From the NCBI RefSeq assembly GCF_009687845.1, contig NZ_BLAD01000040.1, forward strand, positions 159,666 through 223,665: DNA of 64,000 nt, given 5' to 3'. The notes beneath the pieces are model-generated. The model searched no databases, was not told where the DNA came from, and worked only from the letters and a program-made list of their open reading frames with translations. Each line of letters opens with the position of its first letter. The stretch's first letter is position 1. A program made the translations under genes and the position numbers. The DNA is from Acrocarpospora corrugata. Its GTDB lineage: Bacteria; Actinomycetota; Actinomycetes; Streptosporangiales; Streptosporangiaceae. Of this stretch, positions 8,523 to 15,647 are shown in pieces.

Positions 8523-9044
8523 CTACCGGCCCCGGTCCCGTGAGGTTCCCACGAGATCGGCAGCCTTCTCCGCGACGACCGCCAGCAGCGCCACGAACCC
8601 GGCGAGGGGCAGGTGGAGCAGGCGGGCGAGCACATCCGGGGGCGGCGTGAGGGCGCCCCCGGCCATCGCGGCGCTCGCCACCGACCACAACACGCCGACG
8701 GCGATCTTCAGCGGCGACACGCGGGTCTCCGCGTCCAGGCAGCCGCACGGCACCCGCCCTCGCACCCGCAGCAGGATCGCCAGGTAACCCGCCAGAGCCG
8801 CCTGCCACGCCGCCGCCGCGGCCCAGACGTACCGGAAGTCGGCCCCCACGGCCCAGCCGGCGAGCACCGCGAGGCCGAGAAGCGGCCCCACCGGCACGGC
8901 GCAGCGGACCACCCACCCCGGCAGCAGGCCGTGCTCACGGATGACGCGGGTGACCGCGCCGGCCCGAGCGAGGTGGCGCGCGCCCGCCACCACCAGGAGC
9001 ACGGCACCGGCCAGGGCCACGTCCGCGATCAGGATCATGTCCAC
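8523..9044 (-). CDS. MauE/DoxX-like redox membrane protein
   Basis: This 173-residue protein has four predicted membrane helices: DVALAGAVLLVVAGARHL near the start, then a VGPLLGLAVLAGWAVG region, a helix around 80-95, and two closing hydrophobic stretches. Between helices 3 and 4 it has VPCGCLDAETRVSPLK. The CGC motif in this position is characteristic of MauE-type proteins, which are thought to shuttle electrons for disulfide formation in periplasmic partners (known for methylamine dehydrogenase maturation). It lies between the UGA-interrupted membrane protein and the lipoprotein on the same strand. The thioredoxin-like and cysteine-rich genes upstream support a role in disulfide chemistry of the exported protein. 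Confidence 0.75.
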   Translation of the reverse strand: MDMILIADVALAGAVLLVVAGARHLARAGAVTRVIREHGLLPGWVVRCAVPVGPLLGLAVLAGWAVGADFRYVWAAAAAWQAALAGYLAILLRVRGRVPCGCLDAETRVSPLKIAVGVLWSVASAAMAGGALTPPPDVLARLLHLPLAGFVALLAVVAEKAADLVGTSRDRGR

Positions 9045-9075
9045 CTGTCCAGCGGGACCAGCAGCGCGATCAGGA

Positions 9076-9801
9076 TCATGTCCACCCGTCCAGCAGGACC
9101 AGCAGCGCGAGCAGGAATCCGGCCGCGCACAGGCGGCCCACCCAGGCGAGCCATCGGAGCAGGTGGTGGTCCCACCCCTGGGGGTCCCCGCTGAGCGATC
9201 GGGTGAGCGGCATCAGCACGCGGCCCAGTCCGAACCCGAGTCCGGCCAGCACCCCCGGGCCGATGCCGCCCATGAGGATGATCGTGAGGACGAGCGCGTG
9301 CGGGAGCGCGGTCGGGGTGAAGGTGCGTACCCCCGTGCCCATCTCGAAGCCGAACTGGAACGGCCCCTCGAACCGGCTGCGCGGAATGACCTCCTGGGGG
9401 ACGAGCCTGCGGTTCTGGACCAGCCGGAGCGGCCGTCCCGCGAGTTCGAACATCAGCAGCACCGCGACCATCGGGATGAGAGACCAGAGCCTCCCGGCCT
9501 CAGGCACCACAGAGACGAGGCCCGCCAGGGCCCCCACGACCGTCCCCGAGACAAGCCCACCCAGGACGAGACCCGATGAGAACGCCGTCAACTGTCCCCG
9601 CCAGACCGGCGAGGTGAGCAGATCCGCCGAGTTGAGGCTTCAAACGGATCCCGATAGCGAGAAACCGGCGATAACGCCCATCAGAATCCAGGCGAGCAGA
9701 TCGACCCGGCCCGGCCAAACCTGACTCGCCGCGGCCAGGGCGGCGGCCACGGCGAGCAGGACTCCGGCCGTACGGGGGGCGGTGATCACGCGTACGCCCA
9801 T
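9076..9801 (-). CDS. Six-helix membrane protein with an in-frame UGA at codon 54: candidate selenoprotein or nonsense allele
   Basis: Reading from the ATG at 9801, 53 sense codons are followed by TGA (9642-9640) and then, in the same frame, 187 further sense codons to the stop at 9076. Hydrophobicity is continuous: helices around residues 10-28, 32-52, 70-96, 101-118, 150-180 and 210-235. Downstream of TGA the protein reads SLNSADLLTSPVWRGQ and later FQFGFEMGTGVRTF, with no new ATG near the break (only a TTG at 9591). UGA sits at the extracytoplasmic or cytoplasmic end of helix 2 (GFSLSGSV-UGA). The gene starts 2 bases after the Tat protein gene and precedes MauE. The full selenocysteine machinery lies just upstream on the same strand. 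Readthrough as Sec is my inference; a simple stop mutation is the alternative. Confidence 0.6.
9607..9642 (-). promoter_or_regulatory. Candidate bacterial SECIS hairpin after in-frame UGA
   Basis: Ten bases after the UGA the message reads CGGCG, a 13-base loop beginning with G, then CGCCG, giving a 5-bp perfect GC stem. The loop starts 16 bases after the UGA and its first base is G, which meets the commonly used bacterial SECIS rules (G in the first two loop positions, loop 16-37 bases from UGA). A 5-bp stem can arise by chance in GC-rich DNA, so this is supporting evidence only. Confidence 0.35.
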
Positions 9802-9803
9802 GG

Positions 9804-10322
9804 TCAGGGATTCGCCCGGGAGCAGATGTAGAACGAGGTTCCCGCCCCGTAGACGGTGAAGTTGCCGTCGGCGCACCGGTACGGCGTGCTGCCGAAGGTC
9901 CACCGCCAGGCGTTCTTCTTGGTGACGTTGTTGCCGCAGGCGACGACCGGCGTGTAGTACGAGTAGGAGTTGCCATCCGTCCGGAACCAGCCGTCACTCC
10001 CGCAGTAACCGCTGGAGTACGAGGCTCCCACGCAAGCCGTCTGGGTGGTGCCGTTCGCATACCCGGTCCAGCCGTCGTAGCCGGAGTTGGTGCAGTTGGA
10101 CCACTCGGTCCCGACGGTCGCGGAGGCGCTCCTGATCCGCGCGGGCGGCAGGGCGCCCACCACGTTCAGGGCGAGCGCGCCGCCGAGCACGCCGACCGAC
10201 TTGAACATCGCGCGCCGGGACACCCCCGGCCACGCCGGTCGGCGGCGGCGCTGGGAGGACGGCTCGGCGTCCTGGTCCGCCGACGGGACGTCGGCCCAGT
10301 AGTCGCTGGCGTTGACGGTCAT
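9804..10322 (-). CDS. Tat-exported cysteine-rich protein
   Basis: This 172-residue precursor has a long N-region, the twin-arginine motif SRRAMFK, a hydrophobic stretch (VGVLGGALALNVVGAL) and a likely cleavage site after SASA. The mature ~105 residues are rich in Gly, Ser, Tyr and Trp and contain six cysteines, in NCTN, TACVG, GYCGSDG, VVACGNN, PYRCADG and FYICSRA, consistent with three disulfides. The combination of a Tat signal, many cysteines and adjacent MauD- and MauE-like genes recalls the methylamine dehydrogenase light chain (MauA), but the cysteine count and sequence differ and homology is not shown. The start ATG lies 5 bases after the MauD-like stop. Confidence 0.7.
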   Translation of the reverse strand: MTVNASDYWADVPSADQDAEPSSQRRRRPAWPGVSRRAMFKSVGVLGGALALNVVGALPPARIRSASATVGTEWSNCTNSGYDGWTGYANGTTQTACVGASYSSGYCGSDGWFRTDGNSYSYYTPVVACGNNVTKKNAWRWTFGSTPYRCADGNFTVYGAGTSFYICSRANP

Positions 10323-10327
10323 GCTGG

Positions 10328-10834
10328 TCACCTCGCGTTCGAAGATTCGGGCACGTCCGCGCCGAGGAGCCGGTCGAGGTCCTGGTCGGATCCGACCACG
10401 CGGCGCCACTCCTCGGTTCCGTCCGGGGCGTACTTCACGAGCGACGGGGTCGCGCCGACCGCGACCGAGCCGAGAAGCTCGGCGTCGACGACTGCCTGGA
10501 TGTGGCCGGCGCCCTCGATCCACCGCAGCGGATCCGGGCCCGCGCTCAGCATCGACAGGTGGCCCGCGGGCAGGCCGGGCGCGATCGCGGCCAGGCGCGC
10601 GGCCCGCTGCTCGCAGCTCGGGCACTGGTCGGTGACCACGAGCACGAACGTGGGCCGCTCGTCCCCGGAGGCGAACCGGGTGACGCGGCGGACGGCGGAC
10701 GCGCCGGGCACGGGGACGGCGAGCGCCGCCTGCTGGAGCTCACGTACGGTCCTGAGCAGGGCGGAGATCGCGAACAGCGCGACGACCACGCCGAGGAAGG
10801 CGAACACGGCCAGCGAGTTGATGACGTTCTGCAT
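10328..10834 (-). CDS. MauD-like thioredoxin-fold protein with CPSC motif
   Basis: The 168-residue protein has an N-terminal membrane anchor (SLAVFAFLGVVVALFAISAL) followed by a thioredoxin-like domain. TFVLVVTDQCPSCEQRAARL carries the CxxC active site, and the segment VGATPSLVKYAPDG supplies the cis-Pro loop. MauD-type proteins act at the membrane with MauE in disulfide handling of exported partners. The ATG at 10834 was chosen because it begins the anchor and lies 5 bases after the stop of the preceding gene. The next gene, the Tat-exported Cys-rich protein, again starts 5 bases later, indicating one operon. Confidence 0.8.
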   Translation of the reverse strand: MQNVINSLAVFAFLGVVVALFAISALLRTVRELQQAALAVPVPGASAVRRVTRFASGDERPTFVLVVTDQCPSCEQRAARLAAIAPGLPAGHLSMLSAGPDPLRWIEGAGHIQAVVDAELLGSVAVGATPSLVKYAPDGTEEWRRVVGSDQDLDRLLGADVPESSNAR

Positions 10835-10839
10835 CGGCG

Positions 10840-11511
10840 TCAGTTCAGCCCGCACGTGATGGAGTCGGCGACCGCGGCGAAACGCGGGTCGTCGGCCTCC
10901 CTGGCGATGAGCGTCGTGGTCGTCGTCTCGTTGACCACGATGGCCGAGCGCAGCACCCGCCCGTCGGCGCGTCTCTCGTCGAGCTTCCACAACGCGCCGC
11001 CCCGAACCCGTTTGCCCGTGCCGCCCGGCCTGGGCAGGTCGCCCACCGGGTTCACCTGGACCGAGCACACCCCGTCGAGGGTGTTGACGGCGAGCATGTT
11101 GCCGAGCCGCACCCGCGCGCCGAGCCGGGGCGCCAGGACGACGCCGTCCGGGGCGTCCTGGATGTCGAAGCCGGCGAGGTGGCCCATGAAAGCCTCGAAG
11201 GGCACGTTGACGCCCGGGATGAAGGTGTAGACCTCGTGGTGGGGGCCGATCCACAGCATCGTGGTGCCGCCGTTCTCGGGGTCCTCGTGGGAGACCAGCC
11301 GGGCGCCGTTCCAGGAGACCTCCCGGACGGTGAAGCGGCCGTACTCCCCGAGATGACGGGAGATCAGCTCCCGCGCTCCCGCCGCCGCGGTGTGGAAGCG
11401 GAGGGAGCCGCCGTCGCCGCGGGCCCACACCATGTAGCTCCAGCCCATGGTGAACGGCTGCGGGCTGCCTTCGACGGTGAGTGTCCGGCCGTCGGGGGTT
11501 CGTGCTGGCAT
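10840..11511 (-). CDS. Conserved-looking protein of unknown function, first gene after the SARP regulator
   Basis: This 223-residue soluble protein appears beta-rich, with alternating strands such as MGWSYMVWARGDGG, TTMLWIGPHHEVYTFIPG and AIVVNETTTTTLIAREAD. It has no signal peptide and I recognise no family. Two cysteines occur late (GVCSV and the C-terminal ITCGLN). The ATG at 11511 was preferred to an upstream ATG at 11526 because GAGGAG lies at proper distance. It is followed within 5 bases by the MauD-like gene, so it is likely part of the maturation or regulation of the exported Cys-rich protein. Confidence 0.6.
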   Translation of the reverse strand: MPARTPDGRTLTVEGSPQPFTMGWSYMVWARGDGGSLRFHTAAAGARELISRHLGEYGRFTVREVSWNGARLVSHEDPENGGTTMLWIGPHHEVYTFIPGVNVPFEAFMGHLAGFDIQDAPDGVVLAPRLGARVRLGNMLAVNTLDGVCSVQVNPVGDLPRPGGTGKRVRGGALWKLDERRADGRVLRSAIVVNETTTTTLIAREADDPRFAAVADSITCGLN

Positions 11512-11606
11512 GGCACCACTCCTCATGATCCGGGTTCCCCGCCCAGCGTCATCGATCGGCCTCCACGATCGCCCCACAGTCGCCACACGCCCGCCACACG
11601 GGCGGT

Positions 11607-12356
11607 TCACAAACTCGGGTCCTCCATCAGGACGCGGTTGTGCAGGCTGGTCAGCGCCTGGGAGGGCCCGACGCCGATCCGCTCGACGAGGGCGGCCCGG
11701 CAGTCGTGGTAGGCGAGCAGCGCCTCCGCCCGGCGTCCGCTCTTGTGCAGGGCGAGCATGAGCCGGGCCCTCAGGTCCTCCCGCAGCGGTGCCCAGGCGA
11801 CCGCGATCTGAAGCTGGTCGACGGCGTCCTCGTACGCGCCGAGCCGGATGCAGCCGCTCGCGAAGTCGCCCACGGCGGCCATCCGGCGTTCGTTGAGCTG
11901 GGTCGCGGCGTTCCTGAGCGCCTCGGAGCTGTCCACCAGGTCCTGGAGGGCCGACCCGCGCCACAGGTCCAGCGCGTTCCTCAGCAGGTGGACGCCGACC
12001 GCGTCGTCCCGCGCGCTCAGCGCCATCGCCGCCCTGGACCGCATCGACTCGAACGCCGACAGGTCGAGGTGGTCGGCCACGTCGGTCACCCGGTATCCGC
12101 CCGGCACCGTCTCGATGGACACCCCGGAACTGGCCAGGCCCTTGCGGAGTTCGGCGACGTACGTCTGAAGGTTCCGCCGGGCCGAGGGCGGGGCGTGCTC
12201 ACCCCAGAGGGTGGTCATGCAGCGGTCGGTCGAGACCGCGTGGGGCGAGTCGAGCAGGAGGAGGGCAAGGAGCTGACGGTGTTTGATCCGGGTGACGGCG
12301 AGGAGCCCGCCGTCCGGATGGTGGATCTCGAAGTGCCCGAGCAGGAGGAATCTCAT
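11607..12356 (-). CDS. SARP-type (BTAD) transcriptional regulator
   Basis: A 249-residue protein with the AfsR/DnrI-type architecture. An N-terminal winged-helix DNA-binding domain (LLLGHFEIHHPDGG, RIKHRQLLALLLLDSP, SARRNLQTYVAELRKGL, GGYRV) is followed by a bacterial transcriptional activation domain of TPR-like helices (FASGCIRLGAYEDAVDQLQ, REDLRARLMLALHKSGRRAE, ALTSLHNRVL). It is a small SARP without NB-ARC. SARPs activate nearby operons by binding direct repeats near the -35 box. Here it immediately precedes the Mau-like operon on the same strand, so it is the likely activator of that operon. It is separated from selC by ~125 bases. Confidence 0.85.
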   Translation of the reverse strand: MRFLLLGHFEIHHPDGGLLAVTRIKHRQLLALLLLDSPHAVSTDRCMTTLWGEHAPPSARRNLQTYVAELRKGLASSGVSIETVPGGYRVTDVADHLDLSAFESMRSRAAMALSARDDAVGVHLLRNALDLWRGSALQDLVDSSEALRNAATQLNERRMAAVGDFASGCIRLGAYEDAVDQLQIAVAWAPLREDLRARLMLALHKSGRRAEALLAYHDCRAALVERIGVGPSQALTSLHNRVLMEDPSL

Positions 12357-12481
12357 GGAAACTCCAGCCGACCATTAGTTGATTGATCACCCGATCGAAT
12401 CGGCGCCCCGGCCGGGACCGGGGACCGGGGATGCTCGCGTCACGGAACTCGTCGATGCCCACGAAACCCCCTGAGGAGATG

Positions 12482-12574
12482 CGGAGACGGACGGGAATCG
12501 AACCCGCCGCGCCGAGATCCTCGGCACCACCGGTGTTGAAGACCGGGAGGGCCACCAGGCACCTGCACGCCTCC
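12482..12574 (-). tRNA. selC: tRNA-Sec (anticodon UCA)
   Basis: Read on the minus strand the molecule starts GGAGGCG and ends CGTCTCC plus a discriminator base, forming the acceptor stem with one G-U pair. The anticodon arm is CCGGT-CTTCAAC-ACCGG, placing UCA in the anticodon. A long variable arm, GCCGAG-gat-CTCGGC, is present, and the T arm contains GGTTCGATTCCC. At about 93 bases with a long variable arm, it has the selenocysteine tRNA design. CCA is not encoded. It lies 62 bases beyond selB, completing a sel cluster. Confidence 0.9.
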
Positions 12575-12636: not shown

Positions 12637-14334
12637 TCAAATGATTTGCCGGAACACGTTGTCCATTCGGCGGGTGAGACCCATCCGGTCGAGGTGTTCG
12701 AGCAGGGGGATGACGACCCGGCGGGACGTGCCCAGGGCGGCGCGCGCGTCGGCCGCCGTGAACGGCTGGGGCAGCCCGGCCAGCAGTCCGGCCGCGGTCT
12801 GCGCCGCCCCGGGCGGCAGGACGATGCCCGGCGCCAGGCGCAGCAGCGCCCCGGCCGCCTCGGCCGCCGCCAGGGAACGGGCGTCAAGGCCGAGTTCGGC
12901 CAGCCGGGCGGTGTCCGGCGCCGCGAACGGGCCGGCCGCCCAGTCCCGCCGCAGTTCCGCGATCCCGGGGGCGAGCGCGGGGGCCGCCGCCGTCAGCCGT
13001 CCGCGTACCCGCCGCAACGGGGTGTGCTCGGCCAGCGCGTGCACCAGCGAGCGCTCGGGCAGGCCGAGCGCCTGCCGGGCCTCCTCGGCCGGCATCCCCG
13101 GGTCCTGGGGGTCGTGGCCGGCCCGCGCGGTGACGATCTCCACCAGCCGCGCCCGGAGCGTCTCCCAGTACGCCTGGTCGGCCACCCAGTCCCCCGCGAC
13201 GGGATCGACGGTCACCGGTGCCCCCATGGCGGCCAGGTCGCCGCGCCTGGCCAGGCCGCGCCGCCGCAACTCGGCCATGCCGTCGGGAGAACCGTCCACG
13301 TCCGCGAGCGCGGCCGCCCGCGCCCTGGCCGCTCCCCTGCGGCGGAACTCCGGGGGACGCACGTCGAGCACGATCGCGCCCCACACGCGGCGGCTGCCCG
13401 GATCGCGAAGCAGCGCGCGGTCGCCGATCCGCAGCGGAAGGGCGCGGGCGAGGGTCACCCGTACCGTGTCGGCGCCCAGGGGACGCACCCGGACGGGTTC
13501 GGCAGCGGTGCCGATGTGCCAGATCACCTGCTCGGGCGGGTGGCCCTCGCCGGCGAACCGCAGGTCGGCCACCCGCACGTCGAGCCAGCCGCCCGGCGTC
13601 ACCAGCGCGTCACCGCGCCGGGGACGGCCGCCGCCGCGCAGGTTCACCGCCACCCTGGCCGGGCCGCCGACCTCGGCCCGCGCCGTCTGGAGGCTGTGCA
13701 GACCTCTGACGTGCACCTCGTCGGCGCCGGACCTGAGCCGGTCACCGACCCGGATCGTGCCCGCGCCGAGCGTTCCGGTGACCACGGTCCCCCGGCCCTC
13801 GACGGTGAAGACCCGGTCGATCCAGAGGCGGACGTCGGCGTCCGGCGCGGCCGCGGGTGGCGTGAGGCCGGCCAGCAGCCCGCGCAGCTCGGCCAGGCCG
13901 TGCCCGGTGAGCGCGCTGACGGCGGCCATCGGGACGCCCGCCAGGCTGGTGCCGGTGAGCCGGTCGCGGCAGTCCGCCAGGACCGGCGCCGGGTCGGCGA
14001 GGTCGGCGCGGGTGACAGCGAGCACGCCGCAGGTGATGCCGAGTGCGTCGACGATCTCCAGGTGCTCCTGGGACTGCACCGCCCACCCGGCGTCGGCGGC
14101 GACCACGAAGAGTACCGCCGGGGCCGGGCCGACCCCGGCCAGCATGTTGCCGACGAAACGCTCGTGGCCGGGCACGTCGACAAAGGCGAGCGGGCCGCTC
14201 CACACGAACCCGAGGTCGATGGTCAGCCCGCGCCGCCGCTCCTCCTCCCACCGGTCCGGCTCCATCCCGGTCAGGGCCCGGAGCAGCGCCGACTTTCCGT
14301 GGTCGACGTGGCCCGCGGTCGCGATCACGAGCAT
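12637..14334 (-). CDS. selB: Selenocysteine-specific elongation factor SelB
   Basis: The 565-residue GTPase carries Sec-tRNA to the ribosome at UGA/SECIS sites. G1 is TAGHVDHGKSALLRALTG, G3 is FVDVPGHERFVGNML, G4-like is AVTRADL, and a SelB-typical region follows (ERRRGLTIDLGFVW). Beta-barrel domains 2-3 (GTVVTGTLGAGTIRVGDRL) come next. The last ~200 residues form winged-helix domains that bind the SECIS RNA, ending with the segment FTAADARAALGTSRRVVIPL. Length is near the family norm (580-610). The gene overlaps selA by 10 bases and precedes selC. Confidence 0.95.
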   Translation of the reverse strand: MLVIATAGHVDHGKSALLRALTGMEPDRWEEERRRGLTIDLGFVWSGPLAFVDVPGHERFVGNMLAGVGPAPAVLFVVAADAGWAVQSQEHLEIVDALGITCGVLAVTRADLADPAPVLADCRDRLTGTSLAGVPMAAVSALTGHGLAELRGLLAGLTPPAAAPDADVRLWIDRVFTVEGRGTVVTGTLGAGTIRVGDRLRSGADEVHVRGLHSLQTARAEVGGPARVAVNLRGGGRPRRGDALVTPGGWLDVRVADLRFAGEGHPPEQVIWHIGTAAEPVRVRPLGADTVRVTLARALPLRIGDRALLRDPGSRRVWGAIVLDVRPPEFRRRGAARARAAALADVDGSPDGMAELRRRGLARRGDLAAMGAPVTVDPVAGDWVADQAYWETLRARLVEIVTARAGHDPQDPGMPAEEARQALGLPERSLVHALAEHTPLRRVRGRLTAAAPALAPGIAELRRDWAAGPFAAPDTARLAELGLDARSLAAAEAAGALLRLAPGIVLPPGAAQTAAGLLAGLPQPFTAADARAALGTSRRVVIPLLEHLDRMGLTRRMDNVFRQII

Positions 14335-15611
14335 GCGGCCACCACCGCGGCGAGCAGGTCACGGTCCTGGCCGGGCGGGACGGCCCGCAGGTCGAGCAGG
14401 CAGCGCCCGCCCTCCACCCGGCCGACCACCGCCGGGGCGCCCAGGCGCAGGGGCCCGGCCAGGGCGGCGGCCACGGCGACCGCCGCGCTGGGCAGCTCCA
14501 CCCCGGGCGCGCCCCCGCCGCCGACCGCGGCAACCGTGTCCACGGCCTCGGCCTTCACCCCGGCCCCGGCCAGCCGCAGGGCCAGCGCGCCCGCGCGGCG
14601 GCGCAGATCCGTAATGTCGGCGCGCAGGCCGTCCCGGGTGGGGTTGGCGGTGTGGAGGAGCGTCGCCTCCAGGGCGGCCAGGGTCAGTTTGTCCACCCGG
14701 AGCGCGCGGGCCAGCGGGTGCCCGCGGACGCGATCCACCAGGTCGGCCCGGCCGAGCAGCAGGCCGCACTGGGGACCGCCGAGCAGCTTGTCGCCGCTGG
14801 CGGTGACCAGGCCGGCGCCCTCGCGCAGCCAGGTCGCGGCGTCCGGTTCCGCGGGCAGCAGCGGTTCCGGCGTCAGCAGCCCGGAGCCGATGTCGGCGAC
14901 CAGCGGGACGCCCAGGCCCGCCAGGTCACGGACGGACGGGGTGGCGGCGAAGCCCTCGATCCGGTAGTTCGACGGATGGACCTTCAGCACGAAGCCGGTG
15001 TGCGGGCCGATGGCGGCCGTGTAGTCGGCCACCGACGTACGGTTGGTGGTGCCGACCTCGCGGAGCCGCGCGCCGGTGGACTCCAGCAGCTCGGGCAGGC
15101 GGAACCCGTCGCCGATCTCGACCAGCTCCCCCCGGCTGATGACGATCTCCCGGCCCTGCCCCAGCGCGGTCGCGATCAGGACCAGCGCCGCGGCGTTGTT
15201 GTTGACCACATGCACCGCCTCGGCGTCCGGCACGGCCTGCCCGAGCGCGGCCAGCGCGGCCCGGCCCCGGCGGGCCCGGCGCCCGGTGGCGAGCTCGAAC
15301 TCGACGTCGGTGCTGCCTGCGGCGGCCCGGATCGCGTCCAGAGCGGCCGGTGACAGCGGCGCCCGGCCGAGATTGGTGTGCAGCAGCACCCCCGTGGCGT
15401 TGATCACCACACGCGGCCCGCCGGCCGGAAGCGCCCGCAACGCCTCGTCGCCGACCTCCGACGGGCTTATCTCGCCGTTTCTCGCCCGTTGTTGCACGGC
15501 GTTGATGACCGCCTTCACCCGATCCCGGCCCATCCGCGCCACGAATACCGCGAAACGGGGATCGGCCAGGACAGTGTCCGTCCGGGGAATACGACGACGC
15601 GGATCAGTCAC
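14325..15611 (-). CDS. selA: L-seryl-tRNA(Sec) selenium transferase SelA
   Basis: This PLP enzyme converts Ser-tRNA(Sec) to Sec-tRNA(Sec) using selenophosphate. Visible features are the N-terminal helical domain, GPRVVINATGVLLHTNLGRAP, HVVNNNAAALVLI, GTTNRTSVADY, VLKVHPSNYRIEGF, and the PLP lysine region TASGDKLLGGPQCGL. The GTG at 15611 (VTDPRRRIPR...) gives 428 residues, a normal length; no in-frame ATG is available nearby. It is divergent from selD with only about 36 bases between start codons, and its end overlaps selB. Confidence 0.95.
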   Translation of the reverse strand: MTDPRRRIPRTDTVLADPRFAVFVARMGRDRVKAVINAVQQRARNGEISPSEVGDEALRALPAGGPRVVINATGVLLHTNLGRAPLSPAALDAIRAAAGSTDVEFELATGRRARRGRAALAALGQAVPDAEAVHVVNNNAAALVLIATALGQGREIVISRGELVEIGDGFRLPELLESTGARLREVGTTNRTSVADYTAAIGPHTGFVLKVHPSNYRIEGFAATPSVRDLAGLGVPLVADIGSGLLTPEPLLPAEPDAATWLREGAGLVTASGDKLLGGPQCGLLLGRADLVDRVRGHPLARALRVDKLTLAALEATLLHTANPTRDGLRADITDLRRRAGALALRLAGAGVKAEAVDTVAAVGGGGAPGVELPSAAVAVAAALAGPLRLGAPAVVGRVEGGRCLLDLRAVPPGQDRDLLAAVVAACS

Positions 15612-15647
15612 AACTAATCGGGATATCGCAATACGGCTGGCCGCGCA

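Follow-up and report, generated by a model that had tools for sequence, protein, structure and literature searches.

CcdA carries an SPC motif in its first helix, and DsbD works as a two-cysteine relay. The mau cluster of Paracoccus denitrificans PD1222 contains mauF together with mauE, mauD and mauA; MauA is small and Cys-rich and has a twin-arginine start. The plasmid location of this cluster is given in the accessible part of PMC4543880. In the accessible part of PMC7794033, homologues of MauE and MauD are described from putative peptide clusters of Streptomyces, and disulfide formation by MauE is mentioned as a speculation. Among selenoproteins, the available text of PMC13188914 describes TsoB (NF045694) as rhodanese/DsbD fusion-like, with a DsbD-like part and a UxxxxU motif holding two selenocysteine (Sec) residues. 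Escherichia coli formate dehydrogenase (fdhF) is encoded with an in-frame UGA, behind which a hairpin region with GGUCU follows.

The locus described here is part of a 64,000-nucleotide stretch of DNA from Acrocarpospora corrugata, the whole of which is called the window (Table 1). On the minus strand, a frame of 241 codons opens with the ATG at 9801 and closes with a stop codon at 9078-9076; its single interruption was the TGA at codon 54, as already described in the sequence-only reading of this DNA. On the plus strand of 9076-9801, a comparable protein was not found. From the comparisons given below, this apparently broken gene is very probably intact, its internal UGA coding for Sec. The explanation as a whole, in which a Sec-containing MauF-family protein (Sec-MauF) would be decoded by means of selABCD and a bacterial SECIS element (bSECIS) and would play a disulfide role with MauE and a MauD-like protein, is considered highly probable.

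Table 1. Features of the Sec-MauF locus, in window coordinates
Feature	Position	Strand	Evidence or remark
MauE-like membrane protein, CGC motif	8523..9044	-	PF07291, E 1.4e-9, above cut-off
Sec-MauF gene (putative), MauF-family membrane protein	9076..9801	-	241 codons, UGA as codon 54
bSECIS-like hairpin, 7 bp, loop GGUCU, 32 bases after UGA	9596..9614	-	-11.8 kcal/mol
First hairpin, 6 bp, directly before the bSECIS-like one	9615..9630	-	place kept in both clades
In-frame TGA, codon 54, very probably read as selenocysteine	9640..9642	-	frame and homologue comparison
Protein with Tat-like signal (SRRAMF) and 6 Cys, probable substrate	9804..10322	-	sequence; no Pfam match
MauD/thioredoxin-like protein, membrane-anchored, CPSC motif	10331..10834	-	weak PF13098, E 0.12, under cut-off; conserved with the gene
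Open frame in conserved cluster stretch	10840..11964	-	no Pfam match; stretch conserved (out-of-frame query)
SARP-type regulator, BTAD domain	11607..12356	-	PF03704, E 3.3e-35
selC, tRNA-Sec	12481..12574	-	ARAGORN
selB	12637..14334	-	TIGR00475, E 3.7e-65, 220.7 bits, just below curated cut-off of 242.25
selA (stretch scanned)	14325..15620	-	TIGR00474, E 4.7e-121
selD, uninterrupted frame, no Sec codon	15648..16646	+	TIGR00476, E 5.4e-118

The hydrophobic stretch of the window protein comprised residues 35-53, with the Sec position directly after it; in L030, a protein of the wider clade introduced below, no stretch before Sec exceeded the same hydrophobicity threshold. An AlphaFold model computed from 9 rows had a mean pLDDT of 45.9 and was therefore too poor for use. 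By eye, an imperfect direct repeat of approximately 37 bases (gatcaggatcatgtccacc...) was noticed at window positions 9026-9105, reaching from the last part of the Sec gene into the first part of mauE.

Among 60 genomes (the own genome and 59 relatives), the gene was matched in six, the own genome included, and TGA was found inside all six matches. Eight named loci located by pattern and tblastn (six Herbidospora, one Nonomuraea, one Actinoplanes) all had TGA at the same place; locus L015 is apparently the contig of the match in G036. Eight homologues aligned over their whole length were 36-83% identical to the window protein; in this alignment, an invariant run of residues 48-54 ended at the UGA, and N57 and S58 followed beyond it. 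When 396 Actinomycetota genomes were searched with a profile, widened with newly found rows, the gene was recovered in 69, again counting the own one. This search included a second, larger clade, whose proteins have approximately 200-230 residues and a motif like RSxWSPUGESMLSSISPVGE. Within the own family, 80 of 297 genomes had the gene, with 94 matches. Exactly one in-frame TGA was present in 93 of these; the remaining match begins past the site, at model position 80. Direct inspection of the codon in 28 own-family loci (L142-L169) gave TGA in every case.

The codon at the Sec column was counted in 76 loci from 74 genomes, namely 63 of the 69 recovered in the phylum search, together with 11 more from the own family. 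It was TGA in 68 loci and TGC in eight, and no other codon occurred. G245, G343 and G419 (partial) and G323 (N at the site) were left out, and G287 and G364 were also outside the count although UGA is visible in both. An in-frame UGA conserved with Cys as its alternative is one of the features expected of bacterial selenoproteins, and the check proposed earlier, for Cys or UGA at codon 54 of homologues, had a positive outcome. A quick tree placed approximately three changes between the UGA and the Cys state, two of them forced by well-supported branches; these are too few for a sign test.

A nonsense mutation or a sequencing error in a decayed gene, raised as the alternative in the sequence-only reading, would suit the window if read by itself, with its interrupted frame and unexceptional hairpin. 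The single TGA in almost all family matches, its recurrence in one column across the phylum and the identity retained by the whole-aligned homologues argue against decay, and it is the least probable of all readings considered, close to negligible. Almost as improbable is the synthesis of two products, a peptide of 53 residues and a separate protein initiated behind the UGA. The open frame behind the UGA does have TTG at 9591 as its first codon, which could serve as a start, yet the Cys forms are one uninterrupted frame, residues are conserved both up to the UGA and beyond it, and a plain stop would leave the link to selA and the SECIS signal, both presented below, unexplained.

Several genomes had more than one match. 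G156 holds both forms, Cys and UGA, at L140 (C37) and L096 (C81); Nonomuraea gerenzanensis has two copies of the Sec gene at L027 (NZ_LT559118.1), a record of 11.85 Mb that is filed as a plasmid; and four matches were obtained in G701. In a plasmid collection, the window protein matched N. gerenzanensis only, and no homologue of a Cys-form protein, a Cys-rich protein or a MauE was found there.

Decoding by Sec insertion would depend on selA, selB, selC and selD, and all four were found in the window, selB scoring slightly under its cut-off. The position of selC, selB and selA upstream of the Sec gene on the same strand was confirmed, and selD is divergent. The selA marker was a TIGR00474 match at E up to 0.001, and counts by the curated cut-off are given beside it. 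All 80 own-family member genomes had a selA match (79 above cut-off), compared to 16 of 31 own-family relatives without the gene (15 above cut-off). In the codon-count genomes, selA was matched in 65 of 67 with UGA (63 above cut-off) and in none of the seven with Cys only, as expected if UGA occurs only together with the Sec machinery. The Fisher values, 2e-10 for members against non-members (5e-10 by cut-off) and 2e-8 for UGA against Cys-only genomes (2e-7 by cut-off), are not independent tests, because the sequences are related and few independent changes underlie the counts. The two UGA genomes lacking a selA match were G298 (68% complete) and G312 (73% complete); matches under the cut-off were those of G080 (two pieces), G256 (a fragment) and G599 (a piece at a contig edge). 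Three relatives from the genus of the window organism (G001-G003) had neither the gene nor selA. In at least 20 of the 80 genomes, selA was at most 10 kb away from the Sec gene. The use of selB as a marker, with three candidates scored per genome, was given up in favour of selA, since the model matched other GTPases in every genome and the own SelB was under the cut-off.

As genomes without selA have Cys at the site, readthrough of the UGA with insertion of an amino acid other than Sec, such as Cys or Trp, might be considered. The occurrence of UGA together with selA and with a SECIS-like hairpin argues against this. Moreover, both the Sec gene and the preceding gene terminate with TGA, so there is no general recoding of UGA; the chance of such a readthrough is small. 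Reading as Sec is retained here as the very probable decoding. In the own genome, the formate dehydrogenase-like matches (C53, C55, C56 and C67) had no in-frame stop; as selD likewise has none, neither of these classical selenoproteins seems to be one in this organism.

The region behind the UGA was compared with bacterial SECIS elements. Folding of the window sequence alone (61 bases, from 3 before the UGA) gave a z value of -0.16, and 79 of 200 shuffles were equally or more stable; as a single sequence folded no better than its shuffles, the case for a hairpin rests on the comparison of homologues. Two adjacent hairpins at fixed positions after the UGA were common to both clades. In the window, five of the six pairs of the first hairpin are formed, with one mismatch. 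In L080, the sequence of this hairpin is changed, and its fixed place is kept in both clades.

The four bacterial SECIS constraints given in section 5 of PMC13188914, as far as accessible, were applied with a perfect stem required. The window conformed to them. Of 88 distinct sites, among which close relatives were counted as separate by the shuffles, 82 conformed, compared to 23.4 ± 3.8 after synonymous shuffling (60 rounds, maximum 31). E. coli fdhF, used as a yardstick, failed the strict test through a bulge in its stem, which makes the test conservative; in this unrelated protein, GGUCU starts 18 bases after the UGA instead of 32 as in the window. For positions +9 to +50, the folding energy of 70 distinct UGA sites was -18.58 kcal/mol vs. 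-13.76 (sd 0.39) for synonymous-codon shuffles, and that of eight Cys homologues -13.02 vs. -11.17 (sd 0.88). Pairs of the first stem exceeded the shuffles in each clade (68/84 vs. 49.7, and 157/174 vs. 98.6). A bSECIS-like hairpin behind the UGA, as proposed from the sequence, is therefore supported across homologues and above the synonymous-codon null; the one conforming to the constraints (9614-9596) lies a little further on than proposed.

The identity of the protein was analysed by profile comparison. The window protein had no family match in Pfam, and its single NCBIfam match (E 0.078) was far below the cut-off. The neighbours of the Sec gene led to a comparison with the P. denitrificans mau cluster, with MauF of plasmid 1 (L175:16238-17071) as reference. 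In hhalign comparisons, the profile built from both clades was matched by MauF at 99.3% (E 2e-20) and by four MauF rows at 99.6% (E 4e-24). Against the clade of the window alone (10 rows), MauF reached 96.7% (E 4e-10), and its SPC cysteine was aligned to Sec; against a shallower 9-row alignment it reached 4.3% (E 0.009). Three other, unrelated membrane proteins used as controls gave at most 0.3%. By BLASTP, one Cys form matched MauF at E 9e-5. The homology extended over 160-191 columns, and the motif WSPCG was present in all four MauF sequences aligned, its cysteine corresponding to the Sec position of the window protein. By these alignments, the window protein and MauF are distant homologues; unlike the P. 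denitrificans protein, most counted family members have a predicted Sec in place of Cys. No Pfam match to the mauB and mauA subunits was found among the cluster proteins scanned, and the cluster differs from the mau cluster in this and in its other Cys-rich partners; hence the protein is assigned to the MauF family and is not called MauF of the methylamine pathway.

A weaker similarity to the transmembrane domain of DsbD/CcdA was also seen. Of the 25 rows of the both-clade alignment, 11 matched DsbD_2 and three DsbD_TM at E up to 0.1 (best E 2e-6 and 4e-6). In the one row for which scores were given, the Pfam gathering score was not reached (20.9 vs. 24.9 bits), and the window protein itself had no match. 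The both-clade alignment has one invariant Cys/Sec column only and no second conserved Cys. TsoB, a listed selenoprotein whose sequence has a DsbD-like part, is comparable to the putative selenoprotein described here; it differs in its UxxxxU motif with two Sec, and none of the 25 rows matched NF045694 at E up to 0.1.

The genes around the Sec gene were compared in both clades. MauF is characterised by being encoded with mauE and mauD, and this arrangement was found here, the MauD-like protein being recognised by weak matches under the cut-off and by its CxxC motif only. The flanking MauE-like and MauD-like proteins noted earlier thus held up to different degrees, MauE being above its Pfam cut-off. 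Four of four MauE candidates matched PF07291 above the cut-off; six thioredoxin-like candidates had Pfam matches below the cut-offs or none, and all had CxxC. By tblastn, 11 of 14 near-clade loci, the window included, had the order MauD-like, Cys-rich, Sec gene, MauE; some or all of these neighbour matches were missing at L023, L024 and L025. In 20 loci of the wider clade, analysed with a crude gene finder, a Cys-rich protein was encoded near the gene in 16, usually with a twin-arginine start. No Cys-rich Tat gene was seen near three Cys-form loci of this clade (L088, L090 and L100), and the call for the remaining locus, L101, was ambiguous. Cys-form loci seen with their neighbours were L088, L089, L090, L095 and L100, three of five having no Cys-rich Tat gene. 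At L093, L097, L103 and L105, the Cys-rich proteins extend into long repeats resembling cell-surface binding repeats.

A profile of the Cys-rich protein and its relatives, searched against solved chains, made weak contact with Tat signals (E 0.38). Methylamine dehydrogenase light chain was rejected as an identity for this partner, as Pfam, PDB and hhalign gave no support; the hhalign value of the Cys-rich alignment against MauA was 0.9%.

The following mechanism is proposed. UGA codon 54 would be decoded as Sec by the adjacent selABCD genes through the bSECIS hairpin just behind it. The product, a member of the MauF family, would be a small membrane protein with several helices, in which Sec replaces the WSPCG cysteine after a membrane helix. 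At the membrane edge, the selenol may undergo exchange with MauE or with the MauD-like CxxC; disulfides of the Cys-rich protein that is encoded directly upstream and exported would thereby be oxidised or isomerised. Most likely, we infer, Sec-MauF, MauE and the MauD-like protein make or reshuffle disulfides in this Tat-exported protein. Because a second conserved Cys is lacking, a two-cysteine relay like that of DsbD does not apply, and exchange of a single selenol with a partner is more likely.

The one conserved Cys/Sec without a second cysteine would also suit a Sec protein of the MauF family with a role other than disulfide chemistry, such as metal binding, or selenium or sulfur carrying for cofactor maturation; in the literature as far as accessible, no report establishing the function of MauF itself was found. 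MauE and a CxxC thioredoxin-like protein near the gene in both clades, and the Cys-rich Tat-like protein at most of the wider-clade loci inspected, speak for disulfide chemistry, and the other roles are regarded as unlikely, though as a serious alternative. The disulfide role remains the preferred assignment.

The searched catalogues contained no MauF-family selenoprotein, in line with the earlier remark that no selenoprotein of this type was known. The 119 prokaryotic families of selenoproteins tabulated in the accessible part of PMC13188914 (May 2026) did not include it, no such family was present in the available texts of PMC12013277, PMC5029168 and PMC1794560, and terms for it did not occur in that of PMC9312934. 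In the open-access literature, among the matches listed, no report was found of a MauF/MauE selenoprotein or of CcdA/DsbD with selenocysteine, and none of this kind under new actinobacterial selenoprotein families or groundwater selenoproteins. NCBIfam (June 2026) had no fitting model.

If the assignment is true, a membrane family common in actinobacterial genomes would be added to the selenoproteins, one that stop-codon readers see as two fragments, and MauF would be given a testable catalytic residue. With formate dehydrogenase-like matches and selD free of in-frame stops in the own genome, the gene may also be a reason for actinobacteria to retain the Sec machinery. More tentatively, and with somewhat less than even confidence, a widespread actinobacterial branch of the MauF family may normally, and perhaps ancestrally, have Sec, replaced by Cys where decoding was lost; this gene, not formate dehydrogenase or SelD, might keep the Sec trait in many genomes, and MauF in general might act in the membrane as a thiol/selenol oxidoreductase on exported proteins rich in disulfides, far beyond methylamine use.
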